Shown here: positions 13,451-22,220 of the stretch, in pieces
Position numbering within the stretch: the stretch's first letter is position 1
Layout of the letters: each line of letters begins with the position of its first letter
From: Flavobacteriales bacterium
GTDB lineage: Bacteria > Bacteroidota > Bacteroidia > UBA10329
Direction of reading: 5' to 3'
Assembly (NCBI GenBank): GCA_021739695.1
Contig: JAIPBM010000014.1
Location: forward strand, 1-64,000
Length of the DNA stretch: 64,000 nt
Program-made: the position numbers and the translations under genes
The notes under the pieces: model-generated
What the model saw: only the letters and a program-made list of their open reading frames with translations
What the model was told of the DNA's origin: nothing
The model's database searches: none

Positions 13451-16400
13451 CTATTCCAATTTAACTATCCTGGTCTGAATCACATCATCAGCATAGCCGA
13501 TGGTAATCGTGTAAATGCCATCTGCCCAGTTATCGCCATTGATGATCAGTGCTGAATTATTAGGCGAACTGCTGTGGACAATCCGACCACTTACATCTGT
13601 CACGGTGAGTTGTTTTATCAATTCACTGCTGCGGATGTTCAGTACGGATGAGAACGGTATAGGATATATTTCCAAGCCCAATTCCTGTTCTCTGATGCCA
13701 ACCGTCAACCAATTGTAAGGTTGAGAAATGGAAGAACAGCCATTCGCATCGAAGACCTCAACTGAGTAATCTCCAGACGTGCTTGGCGTGAATACAGCAT
13801 CGACTGCACCGCTGATCGGACTTCCATCCAAGTACCACTGATAGCTGGTTCCCGAAGTCGATTCAAGATCGGAACCATTTGCCGATATCTCAGGTTGCGC
13901 AGGTAACGAATTGACCACCACGGCAACATCTTCCGAAACAGAACCACAATTGTTGGAGGCAGTAACGGTGTAGGTAGTGGTTTGAGCAGGCGAAACGGTG
14001 ATGTTGCTTGTGGTTTCGCCTGTTGGCTGCCAATCGATCGTACCTGTTCCAGATGATGTGATCTGAACCGATTCTCCAGCGCAAAGCTCTTGATCGGCAG
14101 AAGCCGAAATGGTCGGGAGTGGATTCACATCGATCGTTAGTTGATCGGTAGCATTTCCGCAGGCATTTGATGCCGTAACTGAATAGGTTTCCTGACTGGT
14201 TGGACTAACGGTAATGTTGGAGGTTATTTGCCCGTTCGACCACGAATACGAGTCCGCATCGGTGGCTGAAGTGGTGATCTGCACAGATTGCCCTTCGCAA
14301 ACAGACGTATTGCCAGAAACGCTAATGGTTGGTATTGGAGAAACCGTGGCAGTTACTTGCGTTCGGTTGGTGGCACAACCATCTTGCTGAATCAACCAAT
14401 CGTAGAAGAAATAGTAGTAATCGACACCAGCCGTGCTAGATGTGATGGAAACCACTCCCGGAATATCGTACGGATAGCTTGCACCAGTGTTGTTGCGATA
14501 AAGATTTGGTCCTGCGGAGGTTCCCAATTGAAGATCGGTTCCAATAGGGAGCGTAAAATTCAATGGAACCACACTTTCTCCATTTGGAATATTGACTGTG
14601 GCGCTTTGAATGACCGTTCCGCCACTGTTGCGCAATTCGATGGTTCTGTTTCCTGCACCCTGCGAATACACGCGCACCGAAACAAGCGTCACCTGCTCGT
14701 AGCAATCGAAGAGTTGCGATTGGATATTATTGAAGTTGCCACCCGTTCCGAAGTTGTTGTTGGGAGCACCACCGTTCAGTGGCGCTGGCGTTATCTCGCT
14801 TTCCACATAATAGGAAGTGGTTGTGCTGATGGATGGCGTGGCGAACGTTGGCCCCGTGTTCACTTGATTTCCGCCCGAAGCAGCATCGAACCAATTCAGG
14901 TTTCCTGAACCCGTTGCTGAAAGCGATACCGAACCCGATCCGCATCGCGCAGCATTCTGTACGCTGGGAGCTTCGGCAATCGCTGCCAACACAGCCGTTC
15001 TTTCCGAAATGCATCCTGGGGTTTCTATCACCCAATCGTAAAAATGGTAGTAGTAATCAACACCAGCACTACTGTTGGTAATGGAAACCAGCCCAGCCAA
15101 CGTGTATGGATAACTCGGCCCAGCATTATTGCGGTAAAGGTTTGGGTTGGTGGTTGTTCCCAACTGATAATTTGTGCCGGGTTGAACCGAAAAGTTCAAG
15201 GTTACCACTTGTTCTCCGTTCGGGATGTTGACCGTTGCAGACTGCAAAACGACTCCTGCACTGTTGCGCAGTTGGATGGTTCTGTTGCCGGCTCCTTGCG
15301 CGTAAACCTTCACGGTTTTCAGCGTGAACGCGTCCAAGGCATCGAAAAGCAAGTGCTGATCGCCCGTAAAGTTGCCTCCAGTGCCAAAGCTGTTATTGGC
15401 CGGGCCAAGCTGATACGTAGAAGGAAGCACGACATTCTCTACATAATATGTGGTGCTTGTGTTGATGGTGGGCGTGTTGAAGCTTGTTCCTGTTGCCATA
15501 ACTGAACCGCCCGAAGCCTGATCGTACCATTGAAGCGTTCCGTTTCCGCTTGCCGAAAGCGCTACAGGGCCAGCACTGCAGCTGAATCCGCCTGCGGCAG
15601 TTGGGCCTGTCGGACGATCAACCAAGATGTAGTTGTTCTGAGACACCACATTGCTGCCAAAGCCATTGGTGGCTGTGAGCGAAACGGTGTATGTTCCTTC
15701 GCTTTGATACGTGTGAGTCGGGTTTTGGTCTGTCGAGGTGTTCCCATCACCAAAATCCCATAACCAAGATGTAGCACCATTTATCGATTGATCGGCAAAC
15801 GAAACTTCGCCATTGCAACTGATGATCGGTGAGCCGCTGAAACTTGGCGATGGCGGTGCATTGGGCTGCACACATTCCCATGTAAGGACAAACCCAAGTT
15901 CGGTTACATACACATCTGAGGTTTGCCTTAAGGTGATGGAGCCACCTGTAGACGTGACCGTCCCGCCATTTGGCAAACCAAAACCATCATATTGTCCGAT
16001 CAGCGGACTGTTGGTATTCGGTCCATCGTAGATGAAGAGGTAATCATAGCCAGCTTCGTAACCGAACGAACTGAAGTTGAGTGTAACAGACGTGGCGCCT
16101 GTTGGCGATATCGTTGTGGTCACGTCACTGTTGTCCTGATAGTTTTCGTTGGGGCCGCCAGCATCGTAAAGCGTACCGGTGCACCAAGTGAGGGTTTGCC
16201 CGCCATTATCGGGCATCAAGGCCACACATGGGTTATTCGGGTCGATGCTGATATAATTCGTGCGAACGAGGTTGTCCGTTCCGCAGTTTCCGCCATCCAC
16301 AAAAAGCGAAACCGTGTAAACTCCGTTGTTGGTGTAGGTGTGCGAAGGACTGGCCAACGAACTGGTGCCTCCATCTCCAAAATCCCACGTGAAGGCTGCT

Positions 16401-18154
16401 CCGTTTGCACTGAAATTGCTGAAATCGATGGTGATCGGAGCTTCACAATTGGAAGTGATGGAAGCCGCAAAATCGCTGACCACCGTAGCATCGAACGGGT
16501 CTCCGACACCAACAGCATACCATGCGTTGGCGGTGGCAATTACCTGTGGCGAACATCCGCCAAATAGATCGATGGCCGATTGGATGGAGTAGAAGCGCGC
16601 ATCGGCATATTCGGAAGTAGGGCCGAGGTAAACGGTAAGACTGCGGTAGGCAATTGCCTGTGCATCGGCCAGACCAATGCCTGTAACGTTGTAGGAATCG
16701 CCAAGGTCATTCGTGCCTGTTTCTCCTTCCACAAGGATGTAATACCATTTGTTTTGCACGCCACTGTTGGTGTGTACGCCTCCATTGTCTGCCGTGCCTG
16801 TGGCCCAATTGTTTCCGTTGTACGTGTCTGGATCGCCATAGGCAGGCGGATTGCTCATCGAGCGGAGCGTTCCCACATCTTCGCCCATCAGCCAATCTCC
16901 CGATGATGGATTCTGGATCCACTCTACCGAAGCACCGAAAACATCAGAGAACGATTCGTTCAACGCACCCGATTCGTCCTGATAGACCAGTCCGGCAGAA
17001 TTCTCGGTCACACCATGCGCCATCTCGTGGCCGCAGATATCCAAAGCGGTAAGTGGTTGGCCATCCCCATCTCCGTAGGTCATGCGGGTGCCGTCCCAAA
17101 AGGCATTGAAATAACCCACATCGTAATGCACGTAGCTATTGATCTGCATGTTGGCATCGTCAATGCTGTTGCGGCCGTGCTCGTTCAAGAAATAATCGTA
17201 GGTCATTTCGGCACCCCAATGTGCATCAGTGGCGTACTGGTCCAGGTTGGCGTTTGCGTTATTCCAAACGTTGTTCGCGTCTGTAAAATCGACCGAGTTA
17301 CCATAACTCGTTCCCGTGTTCATGTCAAAGGTGCGCACACCGCCTCCTCGGCCAACCTCGCGAAGCCTGAAACCTCCATTGAAACTATCTGCAATGATGG
17401 TTTTTGTGCCAACATATCCCGTTTGGGCTGTTCCGGCCACATCGGCCACATGAATGCGGTGGTTCTCAAAAAGCACTTCACCCGTTAGAGCATCCACAAA
17501 GACTTCGGCACGATACAATGGCTTGTGTGCGTAGATGTCGAACTTGTAGGCAAGTCGGAAATCGGCTGGTTGTGTGAAGTCGAAACGTGGGTTGATGTAC
17601 ACCAATTCTCCCTTCGGGAAATAAGTGGCCGTTGGATCTCCTGATTCCCATTTCAGGTGATCTTCCTCACTCGGAAGTTCCCATTTATAAGACGCTGCAC
17701 CAACGTGTTGCTTGGCGCTTTCCAAGGCATTTGCCTCTGTTAATGAAGCTTGCATGCTGCCGATCTGCGTTGGCAGCTTTCCGTTGATGGACGAAACCTT
17801 GTCGTTACTGCCATGGGTATGAACGAAGGCTCCGAAAACAGGAATCCCGTTGTTGGTGAGCTGGTAACGGCTGTGCTGCATGCCCAAGTTGTCCAACTCA
17901 TCGCGCAGCTTGACAAAGCCAAGGTTTTCGTTCAGGTCGAATGCTTTTTTGGCCCATGCAGGGAACTTGGAAGCAGGGAATTGATGGGCCTCTTTGAGCT
18001 GAACGAACGCGGGTGTGGCCGATTTCTGCTCAACCCGAACAAGGCTGGCTCCGCTGATGATCTTGTCGGCATCAGCACCTCGGTAATCCTGAGCATAGGC
18101 CTGTGGTAGCGCAAAAGAAAGTCCCACGAGTAGGGACAGAAAGGTGATCTTCAT
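13451..18154 (-). CDS. Large secreted M4 (thermolysin-like) metalloprotease with PKD and CUB-like domains, T9SS substrate
   Basis: 1567 residues. Order: signal peptide (ending YAQDY), FTP/PepSY-type propeptide, then the M4 catalytic domain with HEMAH (376-380) and downstream GALNESFSDVFGA supplying the zinc Glu. A PKD domain (FTWDFGDGG), a CUB-like domain (GYDYLFIYDGP) and a second PKD (WLWDFGDGN) follow. Next come two tandem copies of a ~200-residue module sharing GAGNRTI.LRNS and YPY...G.VSIT. Ig-like segments and a C-terminal sorting domain (LEIYPIPFSSVLNI to RIVKLE) close the protein. It is a cell-surface or secreted protease. The gene stands alone, 73 bp before the sulfite-oxidase block, and has no clear promoter motif. 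Confidence 0.93.
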   Translation of the reverse strand: MKITFLSLLVGLSFALPQAYAQDYRGADADKIISGASLVRVEQKSATPAFVQLKEAHQFPASKFPAWAKKAFDLNENLGFVKLRDELDNLGMQHSRYQLTNNGIPVFGAFVHTHGSNDKVSSINGKLPTQIGSMQASLTEANALESAKQHVGAASYKWELPSEEDHLKWESGDPTATYFPKGELVYINPRFDFTQPADFRLAYKFDIYAHKPLYRAEVFVDALTGEVLFENHRIHVADVAGTAQTGYVGTKTIIADSFNGGFRLREVGRGGGVRTFDMNTGTSYGNSVDFTDANNVWNNANANLDQYATDAHWGAEMTYDYFLNEHGRNSIDDANMQINSYVHYDVGYFNAFWDGTRMTYGDGDGQPLTALDICGHEMAHGVTENSAGLVYQDESGALNESFSDVFGASVEWIQNPSSGDWLMGEDVGTLRSMSNPPAYGDPDTYNGNNWATGTADNGGVHTNSGVQNKWYYILVEGETGTNDLGDSYNVTGIGLADAQAIAYRSLTVYLGPTSEYADARFYSIQSAIDLFGGCSPQVIATANAWYAVGVGDPFDATVVSDFAASITSNCEAPITIDFSNFSANGAAFTWDFGDGGTSSLASPSHTYTNNGVYTVSLFVDGGNCGTDNLVRTNYISIDPNNPCVALMPDNGGQTLTWCTGTLYDAGGPNENYQDNSDVTTTISPTGATSVTLNFSSFGYEAGYDYLFIYDGPNTNSPLIGQYDGFGLPNGGTVTSTGGSITLRQTSDVYVTELGFVLTWECVQPNAPPSPSFSGSPIISCNGEVSFADQSINGATSWLWDFGDGNTSTDQNPTHTYQSEGTYTVSLTATNGFGSNVVSQNNYILVDRPTGPTAAGGFSCSAGPVALSASGNGTLQWYDQASGGSVMATGTSFNTPTINTSTTYYVENVVLPSTYQLGPANNSFGTGGNFTGDQHLLFDALDAFTLKTVKVYAQGAGNRTIQLRNSAGVVLQSATVNIPNGEQVVTLNFSVQPGTNYQLGTTTNPNLYRNNAGPSYPYTLAGLVSITNSSAGVDYYYHFYDWVIETPGCISERTAVLAAIAEAPSVQNAARCGSGSVSLSATGSGNLNWFDAASGGNQVNTGPTFATPSISTTTSYYVESEITPAPLNGGAPNNNFGTGGNFNNIQSQLFDCYEQVTLVSVRVYSQGAGNRTIELRNSGGTVIQSATVNIPNGESVVPLNFTLPIGTDLQLGTSAGPNLYRNNTGASYPYDIPGVVSITSSTAGVDYYYFFYDWLIQQDGCATNRTQVTATVSPIPTISVSGNTSVCEGQSVQITTSATDADSYSWSNGQITSNITVSPTSQETYSVTASNACGNATDQLTIDVNPLPTISASADQELCAGESVQITSSGTGTIDWQPTGETTSNITVSPAQTTTYTVTASNNCGSVSEDVAVVVNSLPAQPEISANGSDLESTSGTSYQWYLDGSPISGAVDAVFTPSTSGDYSVEVFDANGCSSISQPYNWLTVGIREQELGLEIYPIPFSSVLNIRSSELIKQLTVTDVSGRIVHSSSPNNSALIINGDNWADGIYTITIGYADDVIQTRIVKLE

Positions 18155-18261: not shown

Positions 18262-18434
18262 GCGTCATTGCGAGGGAGGAACGTCCGCGGCAATCTGTCA
18301 CCTTACGCGTCATTGCGAGGACGAAGGACGAAGCAATCTCTTTCTAATAGAGACTAATTCTCTCTGAGATTGCTTGGAGTTACGTCCTTTCAGGCCGTGA
18401 GCTCCCTTCGGTCGGTTCGTTCCTCGCAATGACA
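18262..18434. repeat. MITE/REP-like palindromic element, copy 1
   Basis: Ends are GTCATTGCGAGG and CCTCGCAATGAC, an inverted repeat. An inner pair, GAAGCAATCTC and GAGATTGCTTGG, is also inverted. The arms match copy 2 at 19861-20037 almost base for base, while the ~30-bp centre differs. Similar GTCATTGCGAGG elements are known as dispersed repeats in several bacterial phyla. Confidence 0.85.
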
Positions 18435-18560
18435 GATGCTCAGGCAACATTCAGCGCTCCATCCGCGCATGCGCAACTCCGAAAGGCAACACCCCGAGCT
18501 CCATCTTCCCATTCACAAACCCGGCAGACAGGTATTGCCGCTCAAAACATTGGTTTTCGT

Positions 18561-18812
18561 ACTACACAACTATTGAAACGTGGAGATTTTACCATTTGTG
18601 TAACTACACAATTGTCGAAACGAGTAGATTTTACCATTTGTGTAACTACACAATTGCCGAAACGAGTAGGTTTTACCATTTGTGTAACTACACAATTGCC
18701 GAAACGAGTAGGTTTTACCATTTGTGTAACTACACAATTGCCGAAACGAGTAGGTTTTATCATTTGTGTAACTACACAATTTGCGAAATCTGCTAATTTT
18801 ACTGTACGTGTA
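18561..18812. repeat. Six-unit, 42-bp tandem repeat array
   Basis: Units start ACTACACAA and end TTGTGTA: 18561, 18603, 18645, 18687, 18729 and 18771. The inner four are nearly identical and the outer two are diverged. Each junction is a perfect 7-bp inverted repeat, TTGTGTA-AC-TACACAA, and each unit can fold on its own ends, with a possible inner GAAAC/GTTTT stem. The whole array is bounded by CGTACTACAC (left, from 18558) and GTGTAGTACG (right, to about 18817), exact inverted copies. There are no spacers, so this is not a CRISPR array. Confidence 0.9.
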
Positions 18813-18887
18813 GTACGTTAAAGGGCAATCTGATGTCTGAATGCACCCTTTTCGGTCTGCCATTCACCCTTATTGCCTTGTGTCATG

Positions 18888-19850
18888 CCTATCCGACAAT
18901 TTCCGCGCACCAACTATCAGCGAATAGCTGCCTTGCAAACCATAAAAGATAAGATTGACAATCCGCTTATTACTTCACACCCTTTCAAAGCAGCTACTGT
19001 TCAGCAATTGATGGATTTCTACCCTGAGTATGTAAACTTATTACATGATCTGAGGGTAGCTAAAGGCGAACAGACGGGCACCACATCAGAAGTAAAACAG
19101 TTGCGGAAGATGGCTCGTATTTGGGTACGTCAAGGATACAGCTCCATCATAAAGGCCGTTGTACGTGGCACCTTCAACCGGTCTGTTCTCAATTACTATG
19201 GCCTGCCGCTAAGCACAAAGGGAGCCCCAAAAATGACTTCGGAATCCGATATACTGTCTGCAGCAGTTGCATTGCATGAAGGAGAAACAAACCGAGTGGC
19301 AGCAGGAGGCGAGCCGATCGCCTTTCCTTCGGTGGCCGAAATAATGGTGCATGCCAACGCCTTTAAAGCCGTTAACCTAGACCAAGGAACACGTAAAGAT
19401 TTCTTTGGCGATGTGCAAAAAGCCATTGCCGTAGCAAATGTGGAAGCAGACAGGCTGATACTGAAGCTATGGAACGAGATTGAAACCGACTTTAACACAG
19501 GTGAAGCCCCTAAAATGAGACGCAAAGCCCGCGAATGGGGCGTGGTGTACGTTTCGGGGCGCAGGGAGACACCAACGGCAGAGACCAGCTCGGTCATGGG
19601 TTTCATTACGGATGAACACACAGGCAAGCCGCTGCGCAGGGTGCGTGTGCGGGTGAATGGTGTATATGACCGCATCAAAAGCAATGCGAATGGGCGCTAC
19701 TCGTTGCCGCTGTTACAAGCAGGAGAGCATGTGGTACTATTTCAACATAAGAGTTATGCGCCTTTAGCGCAGACCATAACGGTAATAGCAGGAGAAATGG
19801 CCGTGCTGAACATCCAACTGGCCGAAAAAGAGGCCGCAGCGGGCAAATAA
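18888..19850 (+). CDS. Orphan protein: unknown helical domain plus carboxypeptidase regulatory-like C-terminal domain
   Basis: 320 residues from the ATG at 18888; an in-frame start at 18873 adds five residues. There is no signal peptide or membrane segment, so the protein is probably cytoplasmic. Residues 1 to ~230 look mainly helical, with many Lys, Arg and Ala, and match no family I know. Residues ~235-315 resemble a carboxypeptidase-D regulatory-like beta-sandwich: SVMGFITDEHTGKPLRRVRV, SNANGRYSLPLL, AGEHVVLFQHKSY. That domain is usually extracytoplasmic, so its use here without a signal peptide is odd. The gene is alone on its strand and framed by the 42-bp array upstream and two palindromic elements on either side. 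Function unknown. Confidence 0.75.
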   Translation, partial: PIRQFPRTNYQRIAALQTIKDKIDNPLITSHPFKAATVQQLMDFYPEYVNLLHDLRVAKGEQTGTTSEVKQLRKMARIWVRQGYSSIIKAVVRGTFNRSVLNYYGLPLSTKGAPKMTSESDILSAAVALHEGETNRVAAGGEPIAFPSVAEIMVHANAFKAVNLDQGTRKDFFGDVQKAIAVANVEADRLILKLWNEIETDFNTGEAPKMRRKAREWGVVYVSGRRETPTAETSSVMGFITDEHTGKPLRRVRVRVNGVYDRIKSNANGRYSLPLLQAGEHVVLFQHKSYAPLAQTITVIAGEMAVLNIQLAEKEAAAGK

Positions 19851-19860
19851 TTTTCATAGC

Positions 19861-20037
19861 GCGTCATTGCGAGGGAGGAACGACCGCGGCAATCTATCAC
19901 CTTACGCGTCATTGCGAGGACGAAGGACGAAGCAATCTCTTTCCAAGTCTAAGTGTGCTGTATTCACAGTGAGATTGCTTGGAGTTACGTCCTTTCAGGC
20001 CGTGAGCTCCCTTCGGTCGGTTCGTGCCTCGCAATGA
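19861..20037. repeat. MITE/REP-like palindromic element, copy 2
   Basis: Same orientation and arms as copy 1 (18262-18434), with a different central loop. It is flanked by GGGCAAATAA at 19841-19850 and again at 20060-20069; extended upstream the match is 16 bp with one mismatch. The first copy is the last codons and stop of the orphan gene. This looks like a target-site duplication or a duplicated gene end. Confidence 0.85.
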
Positions 20038-20070
20038 TGGATGCTTTGGGTGGCGCAACGGGCAAATAAG

Positions 20071-20120: not shown

Positions 20121-22097
20121 TCAGTGCTTCACGAGCTTCATCACGGCTCCCGAAGTTTCTTCACGTATAAAGTAGATTCCTGCTGAGAATGAACTGGCAT
20201 CGATGCTGGTTCGTCCGTTGATGGTTGTTGATAGAACCACTTCTCCCATGGCATTCATCACACTGATCTGTGTAGTGGCAGCGGCCTCAATCACAAACTC
20301 ATTGGCGAATGGGTTCGGGTAGATGTTCAAAGAACTTGCAGCTGCTTCGTTCACTCCAACCGATAGCACCTCTATGTATTGGCTCGGAGTTACACCCGGC
20401 TCGCATGGGAAATCGATGAATGTAGCTTCCAAAGAATAGTTGCCACTTACCGTAGGGGTGTAGGTCAAGCCAGTGGCATTCGGTATCGCGTTGCCTTCCA
20501 ACAACCATTGGAACGTATGCGTGGTCGGATTGCCAAAAGCAAAAAGATCAGTGCCATCCTGATAAAAATAAATATCTGCCATGACCGAATTCTGATTGGA
20601 GGTCAAACTTACCGGTACACTTTGCGTCTGTCCGCAGGCATTGTAAGCGATGGCACTGAGGCTAACCGGACCATTCCAAGCACCTGTGGCCTGAATATAA
20701 ACACTGCTATCCGTGTCGGCCGTAGCAATCCATGTACTCAACGATTGATAGAAGATCTGTCGGGTGGTTGTTGTAGCATCATACTGGAAACTGTAGAATT
20801 CGGCAGGCGCATCTTTGCACAGAACCAAGCTTCCGCTCACCAAAGTAGCCGCAGCAGGTGGCTCTTGGAACACCGTCACCTCGTGGGTCTCCGTCCGAGC
20901 GAAGCACACGTTGGTCTTGGTAAAGGTGATATCGCCCGACTCTCCGGCCGTGAACACACCGCCATTGCTGTTCGGATAGGTGCTGGTCTGCACCCAGTTG
21001 TTAGGCGTGGTCCAAGAGATCGTTTCTCCAGTTGCTTCAACATAAACCGGTGCGCCACCACCCACACAAATAGTGGCGGGTGCTGTGATGGAGAACGGAG
21101 CAGGAGGAGTGACAACCGGCAAAGCAATCTGTTGGTCTGGACCAGTTGAACAAACATTCTCAGCGCGCACGGTGAATGAAAGGTATTGATAGTTGAACAT
21201 AGGATCGGCCGGCACCGTCATGGTCAGCACATTGCCGTTCAAGACGCCCGTCCAATCGTTCTCTGGCGTGAAACTGTAGGAAGTAGCATTCGGGTGAAAA
21301 AGGGTGTATTCCACTTCCTGTCCGGCACAAGCTGGGCCTGCTGCGGTAACGGTAGGTACGCTATTGATAGCCAAACAGGTGTTAAACGCGAACACTTGTC
21401 CACGCTCAGTTTCGTCCAGTGCGCGGTCATAAACCAGGAGGTCGTCAAGGTATCCGTCCAGTTTGCCAGTGGCAGTTTGAGCACCTGTGGCATTCGCTGT
21501 GGCGTTCTGGCCAAGGCTAAACACATCGCCAGCGCTGTAGCTGATGGGGTCAAGACCAGCAGAGGCACTTCCCTGAAAGCCGTTGTTCACGTACATGTAA
21601 TAAGTCCCCCCTTCCCTCATAAGGACGTAATGACGCCAAGTTGTCTGAGCATTCGGGAGGTTGCCGCCATACTGAAATCCTCCACCACCAGAGGTATAGA
21701 GGAATCCGTATAATCTCACATTCCCGTTAACCAGAGCATGATGAAATCCTGCTTTATCTGCCAAAGACACCAGCATGGCATTAGCCACCAGTTCGGGCGA
21801 TGATTTGGACCAAAAAGCAATCGTGAAATCGCCTGTGAGCTGAAGCGCTGCGTTGTCGTCCAGGCTATAATTCACTTTGTGATCGCTAGCAGACACGAAC
21901 TGAAGGCACTTGTTGGCCTCGCCATTACGGTCGGTGGCTCCAAGTGCAGAAAACACAGATGGAGTGATGGTACTTGGGCCTGCCGCGTTACCGTTGCCAT
22001 CCAACGGGAAATAGGCTACCAACCCACTGGTCGGATACTGGGCCATGGAAACTCCTGAAAGAAGCATCAGGCCTAATGATAGAAAATGTTTTTTCAT
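20121..22097 (-). CDS. LamG-domain secreted protein with T9SS sorting domain
   Basis: 658 residues from the ATG at 22095-22097, which starts a signal peptide (MKKHFLSLGLMLLSGVSMAQ). Residues ~15-230 form a LamG/concanavalin-like jellyroll (GLVAYFPLDGNGN, GYLDDLLVYDRAL). The middle consists of Ig-like segments with paired Cys. The C-terminal ~70 residues are a T9SS type A domain (LNIYPNPFANEFVIE to MKLVKH). Glycan or cell-surface binding is likely. The last ~200 bp and the 3' flank are nearly the same as in the genes ending at 25959 and 27476, so it belongs to a small paralogous set around the two propeller sensor systems. Confidence 0.88.
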   Translation of the reverse strand: MKKHFLSLGLMLLSGVSMAQYPTSGLVAYFPLDGNGNAAGPSTITPSVFSALGATDRNGEANKCLQFVSASDHKVNYSLDDNAALQLTGDFTIAFWSKSSPELVANAMLVSLADKAGFHHALVNGNVRLYGFLYTSGGGGFQYGGNLPNAQTTWRHYVLMREGGTYYMYVNNGFQGSASAGLDPISYSAGDVFSLGQNATANATGAQTATGKLDGYLDDLLVYDRALDETERGQVFAFNTCLAINSVPTVTAAGPACAGQEVEYTLFHPNATSYSFTPENDWTGVLNGNVLTMTVPADPMFNYQYLSFTVRAENVCSTGPDQQIALPVVTPPAPFSITAPATICVGGGAPVYVEATGETISWTTPNNWVQTSTYPNSNGGVFTAGESGDITFTKTNVCFARTETHEVTVFQEPPAAATLVSGSLVLCKDAPAEFYSFQYDATTTTRQIFYQSLSTWIATADTDSSVYIQATGAWNGPVSLSAIAYNACGQTQSVPVSLTSNQNSVMADIYFYQDGTDLFAFGNPTTHTFQWLLEGNAIPNATGLTYTPTVSGNYSLEATFIDFPCEPGVTPSQYIEVLSVGVNEAAASSLNIYPNPFANEFVIEAAATTQISVMNAMGEVVLSTTINGRTSIDASSFSAGIYFIREETSGAVMKLVKH

Positions 22098-22220
22098 ATG
22101 ATGATAAGTTGAATTTGAGCGCAAAACTCGTTTGAAGCCGTTTCATCGAGCGGCACGATCTTCCCAAACCCCGAAATCGTTTTCCGAAGCCCTGCTTTAT
22201 TTTCATCGATACCTTGTTTC

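Follow-up and report, generated by a model that had tools for sequence, protein, structure and literature searches.

The array-gene locus and its product

The window, meaning the whole 64-kb stretch of DNA that was analysed, contains a 42-bp tandem array (18558..18817, forward strand), followed on the same strand by a leader (18818..18884) and an orphan gene encoding a protein of 321 aa (18885..19850; ATG at 18885, stop codon ending at 19850). Copies of a dispersed palindromic repeat lie upstream at 18262..18440 and, 10 bp past the stop codon, downstream at 19861..20045 (both forward strand). The neighbouring genes encode a thermolysin-like metalloprotease with PKD-like repeats (13451-18154, reverse strand) and a LamG-like protein (20121-22124, reverse strand), both ending in apparent type IX secretion sorting domains as judged by eye. 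A preliminary description had placed the array, gene and palindromes at these positions, which is borne out by tandem repeat detection (TRF), the gene coordinates and the palindrome halves; it had also stated that spacers and transposases are lacking, and none were seen in the element.

Regarding the array, TRF called a core at 18561-18788 (period 42, 5.4 copies, 94% matches, zero indels), the sole tandem array detected by this program across the whole 64 kb, and a sixth, diverged unit extends to about 18817, for a total of about six units bounded by exact 10-bp inverted ends (CGTACTACAC at 18558-18567 and GTGTAGTACG at 18808-18817). Units are arranged head-to-tail without spacers and every unit junction is a hairpin, TTGTGTA-AC-TACACAA, at exact 42-bp spacing; the dyad TTGTGTAACTACACAA recurs each 42 bp and a weaker dyad, AAAC-GAGTAG-GTTT, is offset by 21 bp. 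The dyad score of the array was 0.82 compared with a maximum of 0.60 from permuted columns (0/60), and its RNA folding was far below that of shuffles (z -5.7). A pattern search showed that the array sequence occurs nowhere else in the host genome, and an Rfam scan of the region returned sub-threshold chance matches only. The leader has no recognisable Bacteroidota promoter; candidates between array and gene did not score above shuffles and none was consistent.

The orphan protein comprises an all-helical N-terminal domain (residues 1 to ~228) and a transthyretin-like (TTR-like)/CarboxypepD_reg beta-sandwich (about 231-310). The C-terminal CarboxypepD_reg domain alone was detected by Pfam, the remaining ~230 N-terminal residues matched no family in Pfam, NCBIfam, PADLOC, or PHROGs, and neither a known-toxin-like domain nor Cas, ParB or Rep domains were found in library scans of the protein. 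An AlphaFold2 model built on an alignment of 43 relatives (pLDDT 93.5) predicts two very long helices (36-94 and 150-202) and shorter helices, followed by the TTR-like sandwich, and the N-terminal domain modelled alone reached a pLDDT of 95.1. Foldseek recovers the TTR-like domain, and its search with the N-terminal model against the PDB and viral structures gave generic coiled coils only, none at E <= 0.001. The N-terminal domain of the window protein has a pI of 9.7, and most N-terminal domains of the array-bearing clade described below are acidic to neutral. Relatives of this protein, referred to here as family 1, were absent from the viral contigs, phages and plasmid collection searched.

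Fixed-step arrays upstream of two orphan gene families

Of 395 genomes of the class searched with a profile, 28 contained a family-1 relative. In the genus of the window, each relative is preceded by an array whose step is exactly 42 bp and whose units show no obvious likeness to those of the others, and the top upstream autocorrelation lag was 42 or a multiple in almost all fetched family-1 loci, the exceptions being L066, with a step of 41 bp, and L046, L053 and L063, which are weak. In 717 kb around family genes, 48 arrays had a lag of 42, 35 of 84, 15 of 21 and 14 of 63, with at most 5 arrays at each of the other lags, so that the 42/84/126 series dominates; 316 kb from 20 genomes without a family-1 gene contained one weak array match and no such peak. 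Among held-out loci from two further genomes the top lag was 42 in four of the five readable cases, the fifth being weak, and of relatives from another class of the phylum one has a 42-bp array and another does not. The array always lies 5' of the gene, on the strand of the gene, and in many cases stops 33-90 nt short of the start codon. The proposal that array and gene belong together is therefore supported by the recurrence of upstream arrays before family-1 homologues; the more specific expectation that homologues are repeatedly preceded by tandem repeats of the TACACAA type holds very strongly for the repeats and fails for the letters, as the conserved trait is the 42-bp step.

In a protein tree of 42 rows, a single branch (100/99 support) separates 35 array-bearing rows, which include the weak arrays L046 and L063, from 7 array-less ones, and array state changes once on the tree, a value as low as which was reached in 0 of 500 shuffles. 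The array-less clade consists of basic proteins of about 235 aa, encoded in five genomes (L085-L089) in the order polyprenyl synthase, orphan, TatD; because this operon-like order is conserved, the domain may serve an ordinary function of the cell in this clade. Members of the array clade have no conserved neighbour across genomes besides their own array, and in genus g4 orthologous family-1 loci are syntenic. Separately, loci L073-L077 encode 119-aa proteins that match the family-1 profile at its two ends only, over the first ~53 and the last ~49 positions; this miniature form has no array. At L048 and L051 a small ORF (MEQDERIRNLLPPL...) separates the array from the family-1 gene, and a good promoter of the Bacteroidota type, TTTG-19-TATCTTCG, precedes this ORF on the array side.

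Sampling of 400 kb of the host genome for arrays yielded three further lag-42/21 arrays. Those at L146 and L153 lie upstream of orphan genes whose products have a helical N-terminus and an fn3-like C-terminus, and a search with one of them identified six members of this second family in the host genome, all six with 21- or 42-bp arrays immediately upstream, including the two (L146 and L153) that had been the starting point. The second family is present in 62 of the 395 genomes. Among sampled loci elsewhere, 19 of the 29 readable ones have an upstream array whose top lag is a multiple of 21, and several others have a lag of 21n minus 1. Most second-family arrays consist of 21-bp direct repeats, and their dyad excess is small or nil (0.56 compared with a null of 0.53). 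Homology between the two orphan families was not supported by profile comparison. The shared invariant is therefore the 21-bp step; dyads characterise family-1 arrays and some solo arrays. One second-family locus, L244, has perfect repeats in multiples of 7 bp upstream (lags 14, 21, and 28), perhaps a shorter sub-step of the same lattice.

Arrays also occur away from family genes, above all in genus g147, where genome G272 contains 59 lag-42 arrays in 316 kb, about one per 5 kb, and its relative G396 contains 8 in 66 kb. None were found in 65 kb of G397, of the same family and without the gene, or in 100 kb of G093 sampled away from its six genes; this contrast in array density comes from small sampled stretches and is suggestive only. 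Arrays of G272 and G396 are mostly of 21 bp, nearly all with private sequences, and those of the genus occupy gaps of every gene orientation. Dyads exceeded those of permuted columns in 27 of 64 arrays tested, a set that includes three host arrays. Only 5 of the 67 arrays in g147 have a recognised family gene within 700 bp, so an adjacent gene is not required for an array. Occurrence of the array elsewhere beside unrelated genes, considered in the preliminary description to speak against the association, is thus true of the class of 21- and 42-bp arrays and untrue of the window array sequence, which the pattern search located nowhere else in the host genome. Array-dense loci include L118-L137 in G272 and L198-L202 in G396, and some of the arrays there lie inside open reading frames.

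Inheritance, unit structure and interpretation of the arrays

Two second-family loci of the host genome, L227 and L228, have in common a 1.35-kb block at 93% identity within unrelated flanks, comprising array, leader, gene and a terminator-like hairpin with a T run. Palindromes follow one of these loci and not the other; since the block was duplicated without them, the unit is array plus gene and the palindromes are bystanders. Thus, of the earlier suggestion that the set moves as one block, the discrete duplication of array and gene stands, in the sister family, and the inclusion of the palindromes does not: these are dispersed repeats outside the duplicated block, which also rules them out as element ends, and both copies in the window are judged to lie outside the cassette. 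The two window palindromes have the same orientation, with halves 97% (18262-18440) and 93% (19861-20045) identical, and are by far the most alike among the 47 partial matches listed by BLAST in the host genome. The downstream copy may serve as transcription end for the orphan gene. Although outside the duplicated block, palindromes of the GTCATTGCGAGG type adjoin three of the seven array-gene cassettes recognised in the host genome (window 18262-18440 and 19861-20045; L226 1217-2057; L228 2300-2507), which may reflect shared permissive gaps or a real link.

In L224 and L225, array, leader and the first ~40 codons are 93% identical and the remainder of the gene is strongly diverged; the identity boundary is sharp and lies near 1586 in oriented coordinates. 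Between close orthologues, array length differs by exactly 84 bp, with a variable number of units, and an orthologue of the upstream protease in the genus of the window lacks the adjoining array and gene. No integrase, transposase or target duplication was seen, and the L227/L228 block has no recognised ends.

Family-1 units are approximate palindromes, which places dyad centres every 21 bp; each dyad has an unpaired centre, with strong pairing over offsets 1-8. Covarying unit pairs numbered 91 compared with 45.6 (sd 10) in shuffles, with 0/300 reaching the observed value, and controls in which the partner was slid remained at null expectation; as the shuffles ignore relatedness of units, this covariation is supportive and gives no strict probability. 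At the level of pairs, 29 double changes retain pairing and 16 lose it, and one hairpin differs between two close species by GTG..CAC to GCC..GGC. The dyads are thus maintained, although palindromes could also be restored without selection via template switching in inverted repeats. One-sided changes comprise 56 G.T and 37 A.C (ratio 1.5), a weak strand bias; that there is so little excess of G.T argues for double-stranded DNA over RNA, while the ratio itself tilts slightly toward RNA. No signal of intrinsic bending by 10.5-bp A/T phasing was found in family-1 arrays.

The arrays are non-coding. Compared with column-shuffled arrays, neither the excess of open frames (p 0.53 and 0.94) nor codon phase (p 0.998 and 0.54) was significant. 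Small proteins of 7- or 14-residue repeats could be suggested because both 21 and 42 are divisible by 3 and many arrays have one or more frames free of stops, and we regard this as extremely improbable: openness equals that of column-shuffled arrays, a third-position pattern is absent, several arrays have stops in all six frames and one has a step of 41 bp. A coding tandem repeat was accordingly rejected, no frame being open beyond chance and no codon-position pattern being present.

Retention of the step while the letters turn over suggests that selection acts on spacing and symmetry over fixed sequence, and the alternating orientation in family 1 is compatible with a symmetric protein. A step constant at two or four turns of the helix, the changing letters, the position on the 5' side and the little strand bias are together best explained by phased double-stranded DNA. 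We therefore propose, with a probability of roughly 0.4, that the window locus is a copy of a recurrent Bacteroidota cassette in which the array is a helically phased DNA platform for a protein. The cassette has two parts, a non-coding array on a 21-bp lattice (two helical turns) followed by an orphan gene encoding a putative long-helix domain joined to a beta-sandwich. In family 1, adjacent 21-bp half-units are mutually inverted, giving the visible period of 42 bp with dyads every 21 bp. Acting as double-stranded DNA, the array would present repeated sites on one face of the helix to a multimeric protein, symmetric in the case of family 1, and the simplest binder would be the product of the gene itself or a dedicated partner. 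The outcome would probably be control of the downstream gene or local organisation of the DNA, a regulatory or an architectural role. Points against this reading are the predicted helical fold, which has no significant structural relative, the acidic to neutral N-terminal domains of most of the array clade (the window protein, at pI 9.7, being an exception), the lack of a consistent promoter and of 10.5-bp A/T phasing, the many g147 arrays with no recognised family gene close by, and the slight tilt of the mismatch ratio toward RNA.

Transcription of the array would offer another explanation, in which a chain of RNA hairpins in the leader is bound or cut by the protein in the manner of a type III toxin-antitoxin system, or forms a structured 5' leader. 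The consistent 5' position relative to the gene, with many arrays as close as 33-90 nt to the start codon, the stable hairpins with unpaired centres, the compensated changes and the slight G.T excess are in keeping with this. However, an RNA helix should give a strong G.T excess rather than one of merely 1.5-fold, hairpins do not demand an exact 21n-bp step, the second-family arrays have little or no dyad excess, arrays of g147 sit in gaps of all gene orientations, and neither an Rfam match nor a known-toxin-like domain was found in library scans; overall we consider an RNA function unlikely. The same judgement applies to the possibility that the array is a site of recombination or mobility, with cassettes that duplicate, swap 5' modules and gain or lose units, the gene being cargo. 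It draws on the duplicated L227/L228 block with unrelated flanks, the 5' portion common to L224 and L225, the 84-bp differences between close orthologues and the absence of the window locus at the orthologous flank in the same genus, whereas the syntenic family-1 orthologues of g4 indicate that cassettes are not very mobile, integrase, transposase and target duplication were not seen, and recombination alone leaves a constant step in unrelated sequences unexplained.

Neutral satellites, arising by replication slippage on a 21-bp scale and tolerated in intergenic DNA, would account for the variable unit number and for arrays without a family gene, above all in g147. Slippage yields many periods, yet few of the arrays here have a lag that is not a multiple of 21, and the 20 genomes without a family-1 gene show no such peak; with the association with two gene families on their upstream side, the dyad covariation and the single-branch distribution on the tree, this makes a neutral origin highly improbable. 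Beyond the phased DNA platform, the arrays might represent a new class of bacterial chromosomal element in which selection favours helical step (21 bp) and symmetry and is indifferent to sequence. Families of long-helix/beta-sandwich proteins would then recognise the lattice and not the letters, and in one genus the arrays would have spread over hundreds of intergenic positions and serve to organise the chromosome; this extension is rather doubtful.

Significance and relation to known systems

Repeats are normally recognised by sequence. What is kept here across much of the phylum is only the step, exactly two or four turns of the helix, and the location before particular orphan genes, and if the proposed reading is true, sequence-based searches would miss such elements altogether while a simple period scan finds them, and two orphan gene families would become approachable through one feature. 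Genus g147, at roughly one array per 5 kb, lends itself to directly testing chromosome organisation by fixed-step arrays. Should the arrays prove to be ordinary operator arrays, the case reduces to a variation on a known kind. A search of the open-access literature found no relevant description of 21- or 42-bp intergenic arrays in Bacteroidota, nor any prior description of a cassette of fixed-step array and orphan gene, which is present in many Bacteroidota.

A CRISPR array was rejected, as the units have no unique spacers and the adjacent protein has no Cas domain. Regarding transposable elements, the block duplication within unrelated flanks was seen in the sister family, and neither ends nor target duplications were recognised. 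The flanking GTCATTGCGAGG elements resemble REP/MITE-type dispersed palindromes in general type, whereas the 42-bp array shares no sequence with these and its sequence is not repeated elsewhere in the genome. Upstream of plasmid rep genes, iterons form direct repeats of about two helical turns beside the gene of the protein that binds them, and the arrays here are likewise direct repeats of about two turns adjoining one gene. In contrast to iterons, the arrays are chromosomal, several cassettes occur per genome, no match was obtained in the plasmid collection and no Rep domain is present; an iteron replicon was rejected, given the missing Rep domain and the absence of relatives in the plasmid and phage collections searched.

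Type III toxin-antitoxin systems (ToxIN, CptIN, TenpIN) similarly have a short tandem array immediately 5' of a single protein gene, the known arrays encoding RNA antitoxins followed by a terminator and the endoribonuclease toxin gene (PMC8860590). As to an action of the repeats as RNA, pairing is maintained at the arrays, and the mismatch strand bias is only 56:37. The cassette differs in its predicted long-helix and beta-sandwich protein, its weak strand bias and its fixed 21n-bp step; a toxin of this type was rejected, as no ToxN-family match was obtained (Pfam, NCBIfam, PADLOC) and the AlphaFold2 model is a long helical bundle with a TTR-like domain, and membership is not claimed.

Nearest in anatomy is sopC of plasmid F, a tandem array of twelve 43-bp repeats whose 16-bp inverted repeats are binding sites of ParB-F, the protein of the adjoining system itself (PMC6238139), and here too membership is not claimed. 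The locus resembles sopC/parS-F with SopB (type Ia partition) in its 42-bp units, its 16-bp inverted repeat and its adjoining dedicated gene. A sopABC-type partition locus was rejected, since ParA/ParB genes and a ParB domain are absent and array-clade genes have no conserved neighbour. Compared with sopC/parS-F, the arrays described here are located on chromosomal contigs, lie upstream of one gene and have a different sequence in each cassette.
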